Source of the DNA: Synechococcus sp. JA-3-3Ab
GTDB taxonomy: Bacteria; Cyanobacteriota; Cyanobacteriia; Thermostichales; Thermostichaceae
NCBI RefSeq assembly: GCF_000013205.1
Contig: NC_007775.1
Coordinates: 1,174,501 to 1,238,500, forward strand
DNA length: 64,000 nucleotides
Direction: 5' to 3'
In this document: positions 25,573-41,760 of the stretch, piece by piece
Layout: the number at the start of each line of letters is the position of its first letter
Numbering within the stretch: the first letter of the stretch is position 1
Notes under the pieces: model-generated
What the model saw: only the letters and a program-made list of their open reading frames with translations
What the model was told of the DNA's origin: nothing
Databases searched by the model: none
Position numbers and translations under genes: made by a program

Positions 25573-26832
25573 CTAGCCTAGGATGGCGGTCGCCCCGGCG
25601 AAAGCTTCCTCCCGCAGCAGGGCAGCCTTATCCGTGCGCTCCCAGGGCAGATCCAGATGGGTTTGCCCGAAGTGCCCGTAGACCGCCACGTTTTGATAGA
25701 AGCGCCCTCCCCTTTGGCGGGGCAACTCTCGCAGTTGGAACTGCGCCAGAATGGCCGCCGGCCTCAGGTCGAAGTGGCGCTGCACCAGCCGCAGCAGAGC
25801 TTCATCGGGGATGCGGCCGGTGCCAAAAGTTTCCACCAAAAGGTTGATGGGACGAGCCACCCCAATGGCGTAGCTGACCTGCACCTCGCATTTTTGCGCC
25901 AGGCCGGCGGCCACGATGTTCTTGGCCACATAGCGGGCGGCATAGGCGGCGCTGCGATCCACCTTGGTGGGATCCTTGCCGGAGAAGGCCCCGCCCCCGT
26001 GGCGGGAATAGCCGCCGTAGGTATCGACGATGATCTTGCGTCCGGTCAGGCCGGCATCCCCCTGGGGTCCGCCGATGACGAACTTGCCGGTGGGATTGGT
26101 GAGGAAGCGGGTGTTGCCATCGGGTTTGATGGGCAGCTCGGCAAACACCGGCTGCACCACCGCCTCCCAGAGATCGGCGCGGATCCGCTCCTGCACCGCT
26201 GCCTCTTCTGTAATGGCACCGATGGTCGGCGTGTGCTGGGTAGAGATCAGCAGGGTGTGAATGCCCACCGGCCGCCCCTCCTCATAGGCCACAGTCACCT
26301 GCGTTTTGCCATCCGGACGCAGGTAGGGCAGGGTGCCGTTTTTGCGAACCGCGGCCAACTGGCGGCTGAGGCGGTGGGCCAAGCTGATGGGCAGTGGCAT
26401 CAACTCGGGGGTTTCGTCGCAGGCGAAGCCAAACATCAAGCCCTGATCCCCGGCCCCGATCAAGTCGAATTCATCTTCCTGAGATGTGCGACTTTCCAGA
26501 GCCAAGTTCACCCCCTGGGCGATGTCGGGGGATTGTTCATCGAAAGCCACCAACACCGCGCAGCTTTCTGCAGAGAAGCCGTTCTTGGCGTCGGTATAGC
26601 CAATTTCGGCCACCTTGTCCCGCACCAGTCGGGTGAAGTTGACATGCGCCTGCGAGGTGATCTCCCCGGTCAGGATCACCATGCCTGTATTCACCACCAC
26701 CTCTGCCGCCACTCGACTTAAGGGATCCGCCGTCAAGAGGGCATCCACGATGGCGTCAGAGATCTGGTCGCAAATTTTGTCGGGGTGCCCTTCTGTCACC
26801 GACTCTGAGGAAAACAAAAACGACTTGGACAA
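25573..26832 (-). CDS. metK: S-adenosylmethionine synthase
   Basis: MetK makes S-adenosylmethionine from methionine and ATP. The 419-residue product has [20 protein letters not shown] at the N-terminus, [20 protein letters not shown], and the Gly-rich [19 protein letters not shown] loop. The start is a TTG at 26832 behind a clear AAGGAGAGG site. No ATG is available, and homologues start with this Met-Ser-Lys. A SAM-I riboswitch and a sigma-70 promoter lie about 300-460 bases upstream, so expression is probably turned down by its own product. Confidence 0.96.
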
Positions 26833-27135
26833 CGAACCTCTCCTTAAGACGAAACAGATACAACCAAGAACTGCCCAGAAAGCAGAGCCTGCTGCTGCCG
26901 TTCATCATCCGCCGGCCTGAGCAGGGATCCCTTCCACCTCAGCCGAGCAGAAGAACAGACCTAGGCCGTGGCCGACGCAGGAGCAAGAGCGCCGTATCGC
27001 ACCGAGGACTTTGCCGCCGAAGCAATAGAGCCTCGCTCCGCTGCTGCAACCAGAGCTATTGGGAAGCGCTAAAGGGCGAAGTCGTCAGAAAAGTCCCCCT
27101 GGCAAGAGGACTGTCCTCTAGAGAAAGCTTTATTC

Positions 27136-27244
27136 CTTTATCTTTCGGTTACTGACTAACCGCAGGAGTTGGCACCGTAGCGGAGGCTTCCGCCGGTTGC
27201 CGCAGCTTCGTTGGGCCTGATCCCTCAGTCTGCTCTGGATAAAG
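27136..27244 (-). promoter_or_regulatory. SAM-I (S-box) riboswitch aptamer in the metK leader
   Basis: Read on the minus strand, P1 is closed by CTTTATC (27244-27238) and GATAAAG (27142-27136). Between them are the conserved blocks CAGAG, TGAGGGA, GGCCC, GAAGC and GGCAACC. A GC-rich P3 hairpin (GGCGGAAGCCTCCGC) follows, then GGTGCCAACTCC, a short P4 (GGTTAGTCAGTAACC) and GAAAGATAAAG. The order and sequence match the S-box consensus throughout. It lies in the leader of metK, a standard SAM-I target. The expression platform is not obvious: about 300 bases separate the aptamer from the TTG start, with an AGAGGAC/GTCCTCT hairpin soon after P1. Confidence 0.88.
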
Positions 27245-27260
27245 AACGGAACTTGTCCTT

Positions 27261-35204: not shown

Positions 35205-35963
35205 TTAGGATCCGATCCCCAAAAGCGCCCCCAGACCCACTGCTAAAAGAGCTGCTAGGGTCGTTTGAATGCCGTTCACCACTTCATTGCTCATCCAAGC
35301 CAAGCGAGGCTGCAACACCACCCCCATCCAGCTTTCTGCCAAAGTGGCCAGGATCCCGGCCAGCCAGCAGATTCCCAACCATAGGAGATTCCCTCCCACC
35401 CATTCTCCGCCAATGCCCCAGGCCAAGGCGGCCATCCCTCCTGCTGCCGCCACCCCCGCCAGGGATCCCTCCAGGCTGACGGCTCCCTCAGTGCCTGCTG
35501 GCACCGGCTGCAAGGTGGTGATCAAAAAGGTCTGACGTCCGTAGGCTTTTCCCACCTCGCTGCTGACGGTATCGGCCAACTTGGCGGCGAAGCTGGCGCT
35601 ATACCCCAACCACCAGAGGGGATGGGCAAAAAGCGCATATCCCACCGCACAGGCAGCTCCCGTCAGGGCAGATCCCCAGACATTTTCCGGCCCTCGCGCC
35701 CCCTCTCGCTTTTCGGCGATCCCCTGGGCCTGCTTGCGGCGGATCCCCAGCTTGGTTACGGCGGTGCCGACTAAAAAATAGGCGGCTACGACCAGGTAAC
35801 CCCGCCCTCCCAGGCCCCCCCACACCAACAGGCCCAGCAGGCCCGCATGGAGAACCCCAGCTCGCGTCAGCGCCTTCTGGGGGCTCAGCAGGGCCAGCGC
35901 CACCAAGGCCAGATTGAGCCAGAGCGCCACCCCCCACTGACTCAGCAGCCACGCCTGACCCAT
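35205..35963 (-). CDS. DUF92 membrane protein, VTE6-like phytyl-phosphate kinase candidate
   Basis: A 252-residue polytopic membrane protein with about six helices. The sequence TKLGIRRKQAQGIAEKREGA followed by GPENVWGSALTGAACAVGYA and KLADTVSSEVGKAYGRQTFL identifies the DUF92/TIGR00297 family. The plant member VTE6 converts phytyl phosphate to phytyl diphosphate for tocopherol and phylloquinone synthesis, and a cyanobacterial homologue is reported to do the same; activity here is inferred from family. The start is the ATG at 35963. A longer open frame would run through tRNA-Ser and is rejected. Confidence 0.85.
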   Translation of the reverse strand: MGQAWLLSQWGVALWLNLALVALALLSPQKALTRAGVLHAGLLGLLVWGGLGGRGYLVVAAYFLVGTAVTKLGIRRKQAQGIAEKREGARGPENVWGSALTGAACAVGYALFAHPLWWLGYSASFAAKLADTVSSEVGKAYGRQTFLITTLQPVPAGTEGAVSLEGSLAGVAAAGGMAALAWGIGGEWVGGNLLWLGICWLAGILATLAESWMGVVLQPRLAWMSNEVVNGIQTTLAALLAVGLGALLGIGS

Positions 35964-36011
35964 GAGTGCCCTCCACCACCGGCAAGGGCGGCTAGGAACT
36001 GGCCACAACAA

Positions 36012-36102
36012 CGGAGAGGGAGGGATTCGAACCCTCGACGGAGCTTTTGGGCCCCGTAACTTCTTAGCAGGAAGCCGCTTTCGACCACTCAGCCACCTCT
36101 CC
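36012..36102 (-). tRNA. tRNA-Ser (GCU)
   Basis: On the minus strand a 91-base class II tRNA begins GGAGAGGTGGCTGAGTGGTC. It has anticodon GCT in CTGCTAA, a long variable arm (GGGGCCCAAAAGCTCC), a T arm GAGGGTTCGAATCCCTC, and acceptor CCTCTCC with discriminator G. CCA is not encoded. Confidence 0.95.
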
Positions 36103-36208
36103 AGAGCGGCAGAGACCTCAGCAAGCTGGGATCCAGCCGCCGGTTCACCTATTGTAGAAGATGGGATCCCACCCGGCAACTGTTCTCGAGCGGGATCCCT
36201 GCTGCAGC

Positions 36209-36760
36209 TCAGTTCACCACCTGCACATAGATATCGAAGCTGCCGCTGTTGTCGCCGTAGCTGCCCTTGGCGTCATTGACGTTGAAGGCGATATCCAAGT
36301 TGGGATCCAGATCCACCTCTTGCGGCTGCTCCGGCGAGGATTCCCAGACCTGCCGGGCCACCAACCGGGCGTTGGGCTGGAACAGCACCAGGCCGTAGCG
36401 GCAAAGACCGGGGTAGCGCCACTCCGAAGGCGTGGGGATCCCTTTGCCGAGAGGAGAGCGGATGCTGGTGGAGAAAGAAAAGCCATAGCGCCAAGCCACA
36501 TTTTTCACAAAAAAGCGAATGCGGCTGGCCCGCAGCGGCTGCCCCTGCCAGTGCAGGATGTTGCCCGGTTCTTGGTTGACCCGCAGGCCGTAAAAGGCGA
36601 TCCAGCCCTGCAAGTTCTCCTCTTGGGGTTGGGTGCCCTCGATCGCTGCGGCTTGGCTCCAGTCTAAGTCGCTGCCATCGCAGGTAATCTCTGGCGGGAC
36701 TTGCGTCAAATCCATTTGTGGCAGCCCTGACGTAGCGGGTGTAGCCGATTGGGTAAACAT
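36209..36760 (-). CDS. Unknown protein with a lectin-like C-terminal motif
   Basis: A 183-residue soluble protein without signal peptide or transmembrane helix. The C-terminal DIAFNVNDAKGSYGDNSGSF resembles the calcium-binding Asn-Asp / Asp-Asn-x-Gly-x-Phe ending of PA-IL-like and related beta-sandwich carbohydrate-binding proteins. The middle (WRYGFSFSTSIRSPLGKGIP) is not recognised. The lectin link is weak. The gene is alone on the minus strand between tRNA-Ser and a doubtful ORF. Confidence 0.55.
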   Translation of the reverse strand: MFTQSATPATSGLPQMDLTQVPPEITCDGSDLDWSQAAAIEGTQPQEENLQGWIAFYGLRVNQEPGNILHWQGQPLRASRIRFFVKNVAWRYGFSFSTSIRSPLGKGIPTPSEWRYPGLCRYGLVLFQPNARLVARQVWESSPEQPQEVDLDPNLDIAFNVNDAKGSYGDNSGSFDIYVQVVN

Positions 36761-36859
36761 CTATCTCTCCTTTTCTTCAAAATGACTCCAGAAGTGAGAA
36801 GCTGTAAAGAGCTTACAGGGATCCCAAAAATGAGCCGGGGAAAGGTTTTAAAGACAAAC

Positions 36860-37231
36860 CTATTCCTCTCCCTGCTGCTGGATGGAGAATCTCAGATGAA
36901 CTGTGACATCGGGGCTGAGAACCTCAGGCTCTTCCTCGATCGGGCAAGAGATTAAGGTCTCAAGCTCTTTGTAATAGGTCAACTTTACTTGATGGATGGC
37001 GGCTATTCCCAGAGAAATAGACCTTTGCAATACTTTTTTAGGGAACCATAGGGAGTTGCTAATTCCCTGTGACTCGGCTGCGAATGAAGGCCAGAACCCA
37101 AATCCAGGTTTGCTGCAGATTTTCCAGAAGCTTGTATTTTGGAACACATTAATGGTGTAATCCCCTGTTAAGCACTCTTGCGCTCGTTTGGTCTCTGCAG
37201 CAGCTTTCCGCAACCCGGAGCGCTTTGACAA
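36860..37231 (-). CDS. Doubtful ORF, possibly a gene remnant
   Basis: A 123-codon frame beginning with a TTG and lower in GC than its surroundings. The last 60 residues look protein-like (SISLGIAAIHQVKLTYYKEL, then CPIEEEPEVLSPDVTVHLRF), while the first half is Cys/Phe-rich and unconvincing. It may be the tail of a decayed gene. No family is recognised. Confidence 0.3.
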   Translation of the reverse strand: MSKRSGLRKAAAETKRAQECLTGDYTINVFQNTSFWKICSKPGFGFWPSFAAESQGISNSLWFPKKVLQRSISLGIAAIHQVKLTYYKELETLISCPIEEEPEVLSPDVTVHLRFSIQQQGEE

Positions 37232-37286
37232 CCGTTTTTGATAAGATCACCATTGCAAGTCTCGCGGGGTGCCCGGCGCCCACGGC

Positions 37287-38264
37287 ATGCACGACACTTC
37301 TGCCGCCACCGATCTGGAGATCATCTCTTTGTCAAGCCCTCGGCAGGCCATGTCCTTGGCGGGCATTCAGGAGGCCAACCTGAAGTGGATCAGTCGCTCC
37401 AGTGGTGCCTCTGTAACGCTGCGCGGACAAGACCTGTACCTGAAAGGCACCCCTCAGCAGCGGCAGCAGGTGCGGCAGTGGCTAGAATTGCTGAAGCCGC
37501 TTTGGCAAACTGGACACCCTGTCACGGTGATTGATGCGGAGCAAGCTTTTCGCGCCCTCTCCGGCCAGGAGGCTACGGCCTATCAGCAAGCGCAAGCAGG
37601 TGTGTTGGCCCGCACCCGTAAGGGAGAGTTGATCCGGCCCAAGACACCCCGCCAACAGGAGTACGTGCAAGCCATTCGCACCCACGATCTCTGCTTCGGC
37701 ATCGGGCCGGCAGGCACCGGGAAAACCTATCTGGCTGCCGTTGTGGCCATCACAGCCCTGCAAAACCGCGAGTACGAGCGTTTGATCCTGACGCGACCAG
37801 CGGTAGAGGCAGGGGAGAAGCTGGGCTTCTTGCCAGGGGATCTGGTGGAAAAGGTAGATCCCTATCTGCGGCCTCTCTACGATGCCCTGTTCGAGTTTAT
37901 CGACCCGGCCAAGCTGCCCCAGCTGATGGCCCAGGGAGTCATCGAGGTGGTGCCGCTGGCCTACATGCGGGGGCGTACCCTCAGCAACGCTTTCATCATC
38001 TTGGACGAGGCCCAAAACACCACCCCGGAGCAGATGAAGATGGCCCTCACGCGGCTGGGCTTCCGCTCCCGCATGGTGGTTACCGGGGATCTCACCCAAA
38101 CGGATCTGGGCAAGCATCGCCTGTCGGGCCTGGCGGCTGCAGAGCGCATCCTGGCGGGGGTAGAGGGGGTTGCCTTTTGCTACTTTGACCAGCGGGATGT
38201 GGTACGCCACCCCCTGGTGCAGCGGATTGTGGATGCCTACGCCCGCTACGAGAGCCAGCAGTGA
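37287..38264 (+). CDS. phoH: PhoH-like P-loop ATPase
   Basis: PhoH proteins are predicted RNA-linked ATPases with an N-terminal KH-like region and a helicase-like NTPase domain. The Walker A CFGIGPAGTGKTYLAAVVA, Walker B AFIILDEAQNTTPEQMKMAL, and MVVTGDLTQTDL are all present. The ATG at 37287 and a GTG at 37269 are both possible. Length is about 325 residues, as usual for the family. Its stop overlaps the HAD gene start (GTGA). Confidence 0.92.
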   Translation: MHDTSAATDLEIISLSSPRQAMSLAGIQEANLKWISRSSGASVTLRGQDLYLKGTPQQRQQVRQWLELLKPLWQTGHPVTVIDAEQAFRALSGQEATAYQQAQAGVLARTRKGELIRPKTPRQQEYVQAIRTHDLCFGIGPAGTGKTYLAAVVAITALQNREYERLILTRPAVEAGEKLGFLPGDLVEKVDPYLRPLYDALFEFIDPAKLPQLMAQGVIEVVPLAYMRGRTLSNAFIILDEAQNTTPEQMKMALTRLGFRSRMVVTGDLTQTDLGKHRLSGLAAAERILAGVEGVAFCYFDQRDVVRHPLVQRIVDAYARYESQQ

Positions 38265-38986
38265 GACCGAGGGTAATCTTCTTCGATGCCGTGGGCACGC
38301 TGTTTCGGGTGCGGGGCAGCGTCGGCCAGGCCTACAGCCAGGTGGCAGCAGCGTATGGAGTGGCGGTGGATCCGCAGGCGTTGGATCGCGCCTTTGCCCA
38401 AGCTTTTGCCAGCGCTCCGCCGCCAGCCTGTGCCGGTCTTCTGGGATCCGCCCTCCAGGAATGGGAGCGGGCCTGGTGGCGCCAGGTGGTGCGCCAGACC
38501 TTTGCGGGGGTGGGATCCCTGGCTGCTTTTGGGGAGGAACGGTTTGAGGCGTTTTTTGCCCGCCTTTTCGAGTATTTTGCCACGTCGGATCCCTGGGAGC
38601 TCTATCCCGAGACGCTGCCGGTTCTGCAGGTTCTGCAACAGGAAGGGATCCAGCTAGGGGTAATCTCCAATTTCGACAGCCGCCTGCCCAGGGTGCTGCA
38701 GGCGCTGGGGCTAGGGGGCTATTTTTCCAGCCTTACTCTCTCTACCCAGGTGGGCTATGCCAAGCCCGATCCCCGCATCTTCCAAGCTGCCCTAGCGGCC
38801 CAGGGGATCCCGCCTGCCGCTGCCTGGCACATCGGCGACAGCCGCCGCGAAGACTATCAAGGGGCCAAGGCAGCAGGCTTGAGGGCCCTTTGGCTGGATC
38901 GAGAAGGACAAGATCCCTCCTGCCAAGAGCGAATCGAAAACTTGGGGGGATCCCTCTCCCTGCTCAATGCGCTGGAGCGGAATTAA
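38261..38986 (+). CDS. HAD-superfamily hydrolase (REG-2-like)
   Basis: A 241-residue haloacid-dehalogenase phosphatase. Motif I reads VIFFDAVGTLF with the nucleophile Asp but Ala in place of the more usual Asp or Thr at the next position, as in REG-2 and related members. Motif II is VISNFDSRL, and motifs III/IV lie in KPDPRIFQ and HIGDSRREDYQGAKAAGL. The GTG start overlaps phoH, implying coupling. Its last 23 bases overlap the 3-prime end of the opposite-strand hydrolase. Confidence 0.85.
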   Translation: MRPRVIFFDAVGTLFRVRGSVGQAYSQVAAAYGVAVDPQALDRAFAQAFASAPPPACAGLLGSALQEWERAWWRQVVRQTFAGVGSLAAFGEERFEAFFARLFEYFATSDPWELYPETLPVLQVLQQEGIQLGVISNFDSRLPRVLQALGLGGYFSSLTLSTQVGYAKPDPRIFQAALAAQGIPPAAAWHIGDSRREDYQGAKAAGLRALWLDREGQDPSCQERIENLGGSLSLLNALERN

Positions 38987-39752
38987 GCAGTAGCGGGGCA
39001 AAAACCCCATCGGGCTTGAGCAAGTAGCGCCGCAGGTTCATCTGCCGCTCCAGAAGGCAAGCATGGCCGCTTAAAGGCGAGATCTCCACCTGGGCCTGGG
39101 GCAGTCGCTCCGCCAGACGCTGCACCTCCTGCACCGAGGGCAGGAGGCGATCCCGCCCCCCCGCCACCAGCAACGTCGGCAGGGTCATCGACTCCAGGGG
39201 CAGCTCCTCCACGACAAACGATCCCAGCAAGGCCAGGCGCTGGGCGGCCACCGTGGGCTCAACACTGTGAACGGCCTGGCGCAGCCGCTCCCGATCCGGC
39301 GGCTCCATTTGGCTTAGCTCCGCCAAAAATCCCAGCCCCCGCTCCGCCATCTGGTGGTAGAGCGCCGGCGGCAAAAAAGGCAGGAGAACATGACCTGCCC
39401 ACCACCAGGGCCGGCGCCGCAGCGACGAGGCCGGATTAACCAGAATCAGGCCACGACAGCGCTCCGGCTGCTGGGCAGCCACAGCCAGGGCTAGGCAAGC
39501 TCCGAAGGACTCGCCACACAGGTAGGCTCCCTCGTCCAGCTGGGATCCCACCCAATCGGCCAGGCTCTCCCAGCTCTGCCCTGCTGCGGGGTGGTTTAAG
39601 CTCAAAGGGCGGACGTGAAACTCGGCTTGCAGAGCCTGTGCCTGCCGGTAAAACAATTTGCCGGTGCCATCCATACCCGGCAAATAGAGCAGCAAGGGCC
39701 GCTTCTGGCGGCTTGGACTAGAGGCAATGGGCTTGCCCTTCAATGTTTCCAT
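38964..39752 (-). CDS. Alpha/beta hydrolase half of a phytyl-ester-synthase-like pair
   Basis: A 262-residue alpha/beta hydrolase. It has LLYLPGMDGTGKLFYRQAQA, the nucleophile elbow LCGESFGACLALAVAAQQPE (Ser near 82), LILVNPASSL, the acid in LLVAGGRDRLLPS and the His in SGHACLLER. These match the hydrolase half of plant phytyl ester synthases (PES1/2) and of the cyanobacterial Slr2103-type protein, where it is fused to an acyltransferase. Here the acyltransferase is the preceding gene, overlapping by 13 bases. Function is inferred from that arrangement. Confidence 0.82.
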   Translation of the reverse strand: METLKGKPIASSPSRQKRPLLLYLPGMDGTGKLFYRQAQALQAEFHVRPLSLNHPAAGQSWESLADWVGSQLDEGAYLCGESFGACLALAVAAQQPERCRGLILVNPASSLRRRPWWWAGHVLLPFLPPALYHQMAERGLGFLAELSQMEPPDRERLRQAVHSVEPTVAAQRLALLGSFVVEELPLESMTLPTLLVAGGRDRLLPSVQEVQRLAERLPQAQVEISPLSGHACLLERQMNLRRYLLKPDGVFAPLLLNSAPAH

Positions 39753-40483
39753 CTCCTTGCCAACCCCAAGCGCACCTGTTCGCGAGCGGCTGCCGTCAAC
39801 TCCTGAATTAGCTGCAGCCGCTCCTGGCGGCAGGTAGAGCGCCCTGCTCCCCCTACCCAAAGAGGGGATCCCACTCGAACCACCACCTGACGGTAGATCA
39901 CCACCGGATGCCCCCCCGGCCGCTGAAACCTGGGCTCCGTGGGATCAAACCAGCGGAAAAAAGCCATGGGAATATCCATCGCCCGCCACTCTTCCTGCGC
40001 CCACACGGCCACCGGCAGGATCGGCAGGGGATCCACGCCAGCAGCCAAGGCCAGATGGGCAAAGCCCGGCTGAAACCAGCCCAGCTCTTGGGGCGAGGTC
40101 TCGCGAGTAATCTGCTCCGCCCCTTCCGGGAAGATCCCCACCCCTCCGCCTGCCGCCAGAGTGGCCTGCGCCTGGCGAAAAAAGGCAAGCTGCGGCCCTG
40201 ATCCCTGCTGGAGGGGGATACAACCCAGGGCCAAGGCAACCTCCCGCAAGAGGGGCACTTGCGATAGGTAGTAGTGGCAGGCAAAACGAATCGGTCGATC
40301 CAGCCCAGCAATCAGCACCGGCGCATCCAAAAAGCTGCGATGGTTGCTCACCACCAGCAGGGGGCCCTGGGGAACCCGCTCCTTGCCCTCCACCCACACC
40401 TCCGTCTGGAAAAGGCCAAGCAAGACCTGCGCCAGCGCCCTCGCGTCGGGGAACCCGCTTTGCTGCAGGAGTTGATCCAGCAT
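39740..40483 (-). CDS. Acyltransferase half of a phytyl-ester-synthase-like pair (LPLAT/PlsC fold)
   Basis: A glycerolipid-type acyltransferase of 247 residues. The HX4D catalytic motif is VVSNHRSFLDAP near residues 48-53, and the binding motif FPEGAEQ appears later. The ATG at 40483 (MLDQLLQQSG) is preferred; a TTG at 40498 overlapping the upstream gene is also open. Its gene overlaps the end of the tandem ATPase upstream and the start of the hydrolase downstream, so the three are likely one transcript. With the hydrolase it forms a split form of the PES/Slr2103 fusion that acylates phytol, diacylglycerol or quinone alcohols in relatives. Confidence 0.8.
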   Translation of the reverse strand: MLDQLLQQSGFPDARALAQVLLGLFQTEVWVEGKERVPQGPLLVVSNHRSFLDAPVLIAGLDRPIRFACHYYLSQVPLLREVALALGCIPLQQGSGPQLAFFRQAQATLAAGGGVGIFPEGAEQITRETSPQELGWFQPGFAHLALAAGVDPLPILPVAVWAQEEWRAMDIPMAFFRWFDPTEPRFQRPGGHPVVIYRQVVVRVGSPLWVGGAGRSTCRQERLQLIQELTAAAREQVRLGLARRWKH

Positions 40484-40494
40484 CGCCACCCTGC

Positions 40495-41628
40495 TCAATA
40501 GTCCACCCCGCGCCGCAGATCGGCCCCCTGTTCGGCATAATGCTTGTGGCTCACCATTTCCGAATGGACAGAGGCCAGCTCAAAGTAGGGCAAAGGCGCA
40601 TGGCAGCGCCCTGTGATGATGATCTCCGTATCGCGTGGCTTGCGCAGCAAAGCCTCAACAATCGGCTCCACATCCAATAGCTCCAGATCCACCGTTGGGT
40701 TGAGCTCGTCCAGAATAATGGTCTTGTAAAGCCCAGAGGCGATGGCCGCCCGTGCCAGCTCCCAGCCCCGCTCCGCCTCCACGTAGTCGATTTCCTGCTG
40801 CTTGCCCCGCCAAACGATGGCGTCGCGGCCGCAGCGCTGGTGATCTACTAGATCGGGATAGCTCTCTCGCAAAGCCCGAATGGCCGCATCTTCTGTGTAG
40901 CCCGTTCCCCCCTTTAGCCACTGCATAATCAGGACGCGGTGGGAGAGATCTTTGCTGATGCCGCGCCCAATGGCCTGCAGAGCCCGGCCCAGAGCGCTGG
41001 TGGACTTGCCCTTGCCGTTGCCGGTATAGATCTCGATGCCGCTGAGGAGGGGCTGGCCGTCCTGGGGATCCGCCGCCCGCCGCACGCTGCGCATTTCCGA
41101 GTGCAAATCTGCTAGGTCGATAATTTCCTTAGGGGCGCCCCGTCCGGTGATGATGACCTCCATTTCCTCTGGCTTTTGCTTGAGGGTGCTGACGACCTCG
41201 TCCACAGGCAGCAGGCCCAGATCCAGCACCGGGTTTAGCTCGTCCAGCACCACCACCGAGTAGAACCCCGACGCCAGCGCCCCCTTGGCCACATCCCAGC
41301 CGCGGCGGGCCTCTTGGCGGTCAAACTTAGTGATCTCGTCGGGGCCGAAGAACTCTCCTCGCCCCGTGCGCAGTTGATCGATAAGGTGGGGGAAGCCGCG
41401 CTGCAGAGCGGCAATCGCGGCATCCTCGGCATAGGTGCGGCCCGGCCCCTTGAGAAACCGCACCAGCAACACCCGGCTGGGGGCCGAGTTTTCAATCCCC
41501 AGCCCAATGGAACGCAGCACAACCCCTAGCGCCGCCTGCGACTTGCCCTTGCCCTCGCCGTCGTAAACATGGATCTGGCCTCGCCGGCGGTCAAATTGTT
41601 GCGCGGTTACAATGCCGATTTCTGCCAT
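40495..41628 (-). CDS. Tandem CobO-like P-loop ATPase
   Basis: A 377-residue protein made of two CobO/BtuR-type domains. Domain 1 has HVYDGEGKGKSQAALGVVL and VVVLDELNPVLDLGLLPVD; domain 2 has EIYTGNGKGKSTSALGRAL and TIILDELNPTVDLELLDVE. Each keeps the EVIITGRGAP or EIIITGRCHAP strand. Both P-loops look intact. A single-domain CobO is encoded at 27872, so this paralogue may have another nucleotide-dependent role. The ATG at 41628 follows a GGAGGGG site. It is the first gene of a run with the phytyl-ester-synthase-like pair. Confidence 0.85.
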   Translation of the reverse strand: MAEIGIVTAQQFDRRRGQIHVYDGEGKGKSQAALGVVLRSIGLGIENSAPSRVLLVRFLKGPGRTYAEDAAIAALQRGFPHLIDQLRTGRGEFFGPDEITKFDRQEARRGWDVAKGALASGFYSVVVLDELNPVLDLGLLPVDEVVSTLKQKPEEMEVIITGRGAPKEIIDLADLHSEMRSVRRAADPQDGQPLLSGIEIYTGNGKGKSTSALGRALQAIGRGISKDLSHRVLIMQWLKGGTGYTEDAAIRALRESYPDLVDHQRCGRDAIVWRGKQQEIDYVEAERGWELARAAIASGLYKTIILDELNPTVDLELLDVEPIVEALLRKPRDTEIIITGRCHAPLPYFELASVHSEMVSHKHYAEQGADLRRGVDY

Positions 41629-41760
41629 GCCCCTCCGCATCACGCCGCTGTCCAGAACTCGTGCTTCCCTACCCCCATCTTAGAGTCTAGCCAGAGGTTT
41701 TCGGGGAAGCGCGGAGAGGGCCAGAAAAAGCCGGCAAGAGCCGATAAACACCGGGATAAG

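Follow-up and report, generated by a model that had tools for sequence, protein, structure and literature searches.

The window analysed here is a stretch of 64,000 nucleotides (nt) from Synechococcus sp. JA-3-3Ab (NC_007775.1, positions 1,174,501-1,238,500 of the forward strand; positions below are counted within the window). It contains two adjoining minus-strand genes, encoding a PlsC-type acyltransferase, termed AT, and an alpha/beta hydrolase, termed ABH, which are considered here as a candidate neutral-lipid ester module. AT occupies positions 39740..40483 (ATG at 40483; 247 residues) and ABH positions 38964..39752 (ATG at 39752; 262 residues). AT precedes ABH, and the two genes share 13 bp at the 3′ end of AT, exactly as described in the original prediction, which had been made from the DNA alone and had read the two genes as the separated halves of a phytyl ester synthase (PES) acting in phytol recycling. 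The two reading frames are not a product of chance, since the pair recurs across cyanobacteria. Among five aligned genus relatives, the stop of AT and the start of ABH overlap by 4 bp (ATGA) in three (G177, G332 and L075) and do not overlap in the other two (G359 and G376). Because the AT stop sits earlier in all five relatives than in the window, as judged by eye from the alignment, the 13-bp overlap looks like a derived state that arose by loss of an earlier AT stop.

Protein families of AT and ABH

ABH displays the features expected of an alpha/beta hydrolase (PF00561, 51.9 bits). The nucleophile elbow, G-E-S-F-G around S82 in the window protein, is kept as G-x-S-x-G in 99 of 99 ABH orthologues, and S82, D201 and H230 are invariant over 24 aligned sequences. 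A structural search with the ABH model (pLDDT 91.6) using Foldseek retrieved generic alpha/beta hydrolases that give no indication of the substrate. The ABH profile scores 162 bits (E 6e-47) on a provisional sequence of Arabidopsis PES1, not a database record; its best score is 54 bits among the non-orthologous hydrolases of 29 cyanobacterial genomes and 50 bits among solved structures. ABH may thus resemble the hydrolase half of PES, a likeness that serves as a lead only. ABH-like genes were also found in four plasmid records. Two of these, the large plasmids L335 (Gloeothece verrucosa) and L336 (Leptolyngbya boryana), were inspected, and neither shows an acyltransferase within 4 kb of the ABH-like gene in its annotation, a gene table that is incomplete. 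The viral contigs searched hold no relative of ABH.

AT passes PF01553 with 74.0 bits against a gathering score of 23 bits. Both H48 and D53 of the HX4D motif are invariant in the AT alignment, and the motifs SNHRSFLD and FPEG are conserved. The model of AT (pLDDT 87.9) finds its best PDB match in PlsC of T. maritima (PDB code 5kym; TM 0.57-0.59). PF03982, the family of DGAT2 and of the Slr2103-type acyltransferases (MFAT), matches neither AT nor any other protein of the JA-3-3Ab genome, in a search that is positive for 94 of the 339 genomes surveyed from the phylum. The original prediction had named a closer relationship to another PlsC family as the observation that would count against it, and this is what profile comparison with hhalign revealed: the AT profile aligns better with cyanobacterial PlsC (six sequences; 99.4%, E 4e-21) than with Slr2103-like MFAT (14 sequences, including L064, a remote sequence that does not come from the class and has 22% identity; 97.1%, E 5e-11). 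By sequence, AT is a member of the PlsC family and not an acyltransferase of the PES/Slr2103 kind.

The domain, the HX4D motif and the 5kym fold are thus shared with PlsC, the 1-acylglycerol-3-phosphate acyltransferase, from which AT differs in two respects: it scores below the curated LPAAT cut-off (TIGR00530, 59.9 versus 102.95 bits) and it co-occurs with ABH. In addition, the genome encodes a separate, canonical PlsC-like protein, 31% identical to AT, which has a higher PF01553 score, and this makes it unlikely that AT serves as the housekeeping lysophosphatidate acyltransferase.

The combination of an alpha/beta hydrolase with an acyltransferase recalls PES1 and PES2 of the ELT family. PES, however, is one protein with the hydrolase at the N-terminus, whereas here two genes are found with AT first, and none of 74 related loci displays a fused form. 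The acyltransferases differ as well. That of PES is MFAT-like, bearing the motifs R-A-H-P and P-G-G-R-E according to the available text of PMC12526585, and Slr2103 is described in the accessible sections of PMC12048435 as resembling the acyltransferase domain of PES only; AT, in contrast, carries SNHRSFLD and FPEG and matches PF01553 only. On the provisional PES1 sequence, the MFAT profile scores 35.6 bits in the acyltransferase half, and the AT profile finds no match. MFAT proteins (Slr2103, A0918) are single-domain and PF03982-like with a PGG motif, features that set them apart from AT; what they share with it is a proposed acylation of hydrophobic hydroxyl compounds including plastoquinol, and ABH is found alongside both. 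The view that each gene corresponds to one half of PES1/2 and Slr2103 is therefore not confirmed: it is abandoned for the acyltransferase, and for the hydrolase a likeness to PES is indicated on the provisional sequence only. Similarly, two separate genes with AT first are indeed present, but a split, damaged or reversed PES is rejected, since cyanobacteria as a rule have two genes in this order and since AT belongs to another acyltransferase family.

Distribution of AT, ABH and MFAT

The survey for ABH, AT and PF03982 covered 339 genomes of the phylum, with cut-offs of E <1e-37, <1e-45 and 0.001, respectively, in sets compiled by hand; the counts given below refer to the 163 genomes of Cyanobacteriia, the other 176 being left out. 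ABH is present in 99 of these, AT in 59 and MFAT in 91. The three genes occur together in 41 genomes, ABH with MFAT in 40, ABH with AT in 18 and MFAT alone in 10, while 54 genomes have none of them. AT was never observed without ABH, either in the 59 AT genomes or in the 23 of a second set of 29 hand-picked genomes in which AT and ABH are both found. Likewise, ABH never occurs without AT or MFAT (0/99, and 0/23 in the hand-picked set; Fisher p 3e-33, relatedness uncorrected); under independence, 7.3 of the 99 ABH genomes would be expected to lack both partners (Fisher p 3e-5, uncorrected). In the hand-picked set a PF03982 match accompanies the pair in 7 of the 23 genomes and is missing from the other 16.

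The gene order is also conserved. In a scan of the best 80 of 436 relatives (the named loci), AT is immediately followed by ABH in the same orientation at 74 loci, so that the proposed survey of split and fused forms resulted in the split, AT-first form as the usual one and in no fusion. The genes are neighbours in AT-ABH order in 50 of the 59 AT genomes, spanning 18 families, and in 21 of the 23 hand-picked genomes, the remaining two carrying them on different contigs. Co-occurrence and conserved order together uphold the earlier claim that hydrolase and acyltransferase go together. The same data bear on the possibility that AT and ABH are two unrelated genes with separate roles, brought side by side by chance or by coupled expression. 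Such an explanation would accommodate the nine AT genomes in which the genes are apart, most of them genuinely separated (in genera g29 and g48 and in genome G091), as well as three of the six named loci without a neighbouring ABH: in the other three the contig breaks off no more than 120 bp from AT, but in L076, L105 and L135 the sequence runs on and no ABH is nearby. The strict one-way co-occurrence persists, however, even where the genes lie apart, as in g29, and this explanation is considered very improbable.

The tree built from the 99 ABH proteins requires a minimum of 12 changes for AT and 11 for MFAT, and in 200 random pairings the two never changed in the same direction.

A candidate acyl-plastoquinol module

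All six genomes examined of family f48, which is taken here to be the Gloeobacteraceae (G346 presumably being G. violaceus PCC 7421 and G362 G. kilaueensis), contain adjacent AT and ABH (AT E 1e-70 to 5e-75; ABH ~1e-79) and none has a PF03982 match. In G354, presumably S. elongatus PCC 6301, orthologues of AT and ABH are both absent, as is any match to PF03982. Gloeobacter is not known to have a plant-type phytoene desaturase, and a screen for this absence provided candidates only: 73 of 388 genomes of the class have no match over the cut-off, and f48 is one of several such families. An rpoB tree was also tried for the placement of Gloeobacter and was discarded, the outgroup rows being poor and the forks open.

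As reported by Das et al. in 2025, G. violaceus makes acyl-plastoquinol despite having no MFAT, with phytyl ester and triacylglycerol no more than slightly above the level of the solvent control, and S. elongatus 7942 makes no acyl-plastoquinol; the Discussion describes the Gloeobacter acyltransferase as different from MFAT and its isolation as in progress (PMC12048435, available sections). Ito et al. (2025; PMC11973298, available sections) describe two MFAT-less strains with acyl-plastoquinol and without PQ-B. No paper on the AT-ABH pair was found in literature listings, although the “DGAT2-like” sets of Tanikawa et al. (2025) could include AT.

These data lead to the proposal, held at a probability of roughly 0.5, that AT and ABH constitute a cyanobacterial two-gene neutral-lipid ester module in which AT most likely acylates plastoquinol. 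The proposal is made because the parts fit, because ABH is always accompanied by MFAT or AT in the genomes counted, and because the pair is distributed as expected in the two species whose lipids have been reported. On the same match between gene distribution and published lipids, the pair is a candidate for the MFAT-independent plastoquinol acyltransferase of Gloeobacter. We infer the substrate, the direction of the ABH reaction and the joint working of the two proteins as follows. AT, either soluble or at the membrane surface, would use HX4D catalysis to esterify a large, hydrophobic hydroxyl compound, plastoquinol being the likeliest, with a fatty acyl group; the product would be acyl-plastoquinol. 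ABH, through its Ser82-Asp201-His230 triad, would either free the acyl group from membrane lipids for AT or remove the ester again. The pair would thereby do the job that fused PES performs in plants and MFAT (Slr2103) in other cyanobacteria, with AT and MFAT acting as alternative acyltransferase partners of one hydrolase, ABH.

The PlsC-like character of AT keeps open a different role, which stays the main alternative: remodelling of membrane lipids by a Lands-type cycle, in which ABH would be a phospho- or galactolipase and AT would re-acylate the resulting lysolipid, no quinol or phytol being involved. AT belongs to the PlsC family by fold as well as by sequence, and in the PDB the ABH profile matches the monoglyceride lipases ABHD6 and MGLL (E 2e-9 to 3e-8) among other esterases. 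This contrasts with the position of AT well below the LPAAT cut-off and with the second, higher-scoring PF01553 protein in the genome. Furthermore, a general remodelling enzyme would not need the association that ABH has with MFAT, an enzyme of neutral lipids (Fisher p 2e-17 for co-occurrence, uncorrected), and 64 of the 163 Cyanobacteriia genomes contain neither ABH nor AT. Lipid remodelling is accordingly regarded as unlikely, if still the foremost rival.

Several observations weigh against acylation of plastoquinol by the pair. The nearest characterised relatives of AT acylate lysophosphatidate (PlsC). Only Gloeobacter and S. elongatus tie the pair to lipid data, and the identities of both are presumed. 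An independent-pairs test of AT against MFAT was not significant (median p 0.25-0.5), and the underlying ABH tree was built rapidly and contains many long branches; the reading of AT and MFAT as interchangeable partners of ABH is therefore only suggestive. Nor are the partners obligate, since 40 of 163 genomes combine ABH and MFAT but lack AT, and a further 10 have MFAT but lack ABH. Finally, PF03982 scores are weak: in 6 of the 91 MFAT genomes the match stays below the curated threshold (E as high as 8e-4), and PF03982 is just missed in three sister genomes of genus g29. Some of the 18 genomes counted as having ABH and AT but no MFAT may consequently be false negatives.

A more far-reaching reading, offered tentatively and at less than even odds, is that the pair is the acyl-plastoquinol synthase of Gloeobacter and possibly the older system. 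MFAT would then have replaced or joined AT, and the hydrolase would later have been fused to an MFAT-type acyltransferase, giving a plant PES assembled from two cyanobacterial genes. If the resemblance to PES holds on real records, it would indicate the origin of the hydrolase half of plant phytyl ester synthases. S. elongatus, presumed from G354 to be devoid of all three genes, would provide a clean test host. The pair represents a specific, conserved candidate, with matching presence and absence, for the Gloeobacter enzyme whose isolation Das et al. describe as in progress (PMC12048435).

The DUF92 gene and other neighbours

A DUF92 membrane protein, called VTE6-like in the original prediction, is encoded at 35205..35963 (minus strand). 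It contains a PF01940 domain (192.2 bits, gathering score 27.5) but narrowly misses the TIGR00297 cut-off (205.0 versus 205.85 bits). The longer open reading frame to which it belongs traverses a tRNA-Ser (36011-36103), and its start must therefore lie downstream of that tRNA. The gene is 3.0 kb from the ABH stop on the same strand, as originally noted. Between them, besides other reading frames, lie two plus-strand neighbours: a PhoH-like protein (37269..38264; PF02562, 314 bits) and a HAD-like hydrolase (38261..38986; TIGR02252, 221 bits), the latter converging on the pair with a 23-bp overlap of the 3′ ends.

This proximity underlies the original suggestion of phytol salvage, in which ABH and AT would make fatty acid phytyl esters and DUF92 would phosphorylate phytyl phosphate in one local pathway. 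The DUF92 gene lies 3-4 kb from the pair in the JA-3-3Ab genome (G000), G332, G359 and G376, and near it in L075; the likeness of ABH to the hydrolase half of the provisional PES1 sequence points in the same direction. Elsewhere, the linkage dissolves. DUF92 is ~250 kb from the pair in the relative G177 and far from it in the three f48 genomes checked (G346, G355 and G362, presumably all Gloeobacter), and it falls within the fetched flank of up to 6 kb at 1 of the 80 named loci. Moreover, 69 of 70 hand-picked genomes contain DUF92, with or without the pair. A special pathway link between DUF92 and the pair is rejected for a gene that is near-universal and only locally linked, and DUF92 probably belongs outside the pair as a separate unit. 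A search with PF01148 for a phytol kinase (VTE5) in the JA-3-3Ab genome revealed one protein, probably CdsA, and so bears on the question neither way. The acyltransferase, as described above, is not of the PES/MFAT type. The pair is present in the genome that we take to be G. violaceus. Lipid data for this species display acyl-plastoquinol, with phytyl ester only at the level of the solvent control (PMC12048435, available sections). Support for phytol recycling through this cluster goes no further than its having a DUF92 gene, and phytol salvage is considered quite unlikely. In G385, a genome of the same genus as JA-3-3Ab that is 95% complete, AT, ABH and DUF92 are jointly missing, perhaps through an assembly gap or the loss of a block.

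Directly upstream of AT, its stop separated from the start of AT by 11 nt, is a gene for a double-domain cobO-type corrinoid adenosyltransferase (40495..41643, minus strand; NF005647, 735 bits; two PF02572 stretches). It adjoins AT in genus relatives only (L193, L194, L075, L329 and L330); among the 80 named loci it is found at 1. Positions 36209-36760 (minus strand) encode a 183-residue protein that has no Pfam or NCBIfam match and is found at the same position in L075, L329 and L330 with 76-83% identity. Farther away, a SAM-I riboswitch (RF00162, 85.7 bits) at 27135-27245 (minus strand) lies upstream of the S-adenosylmethionine synthetase gene at 25573-26832 (minus strand).

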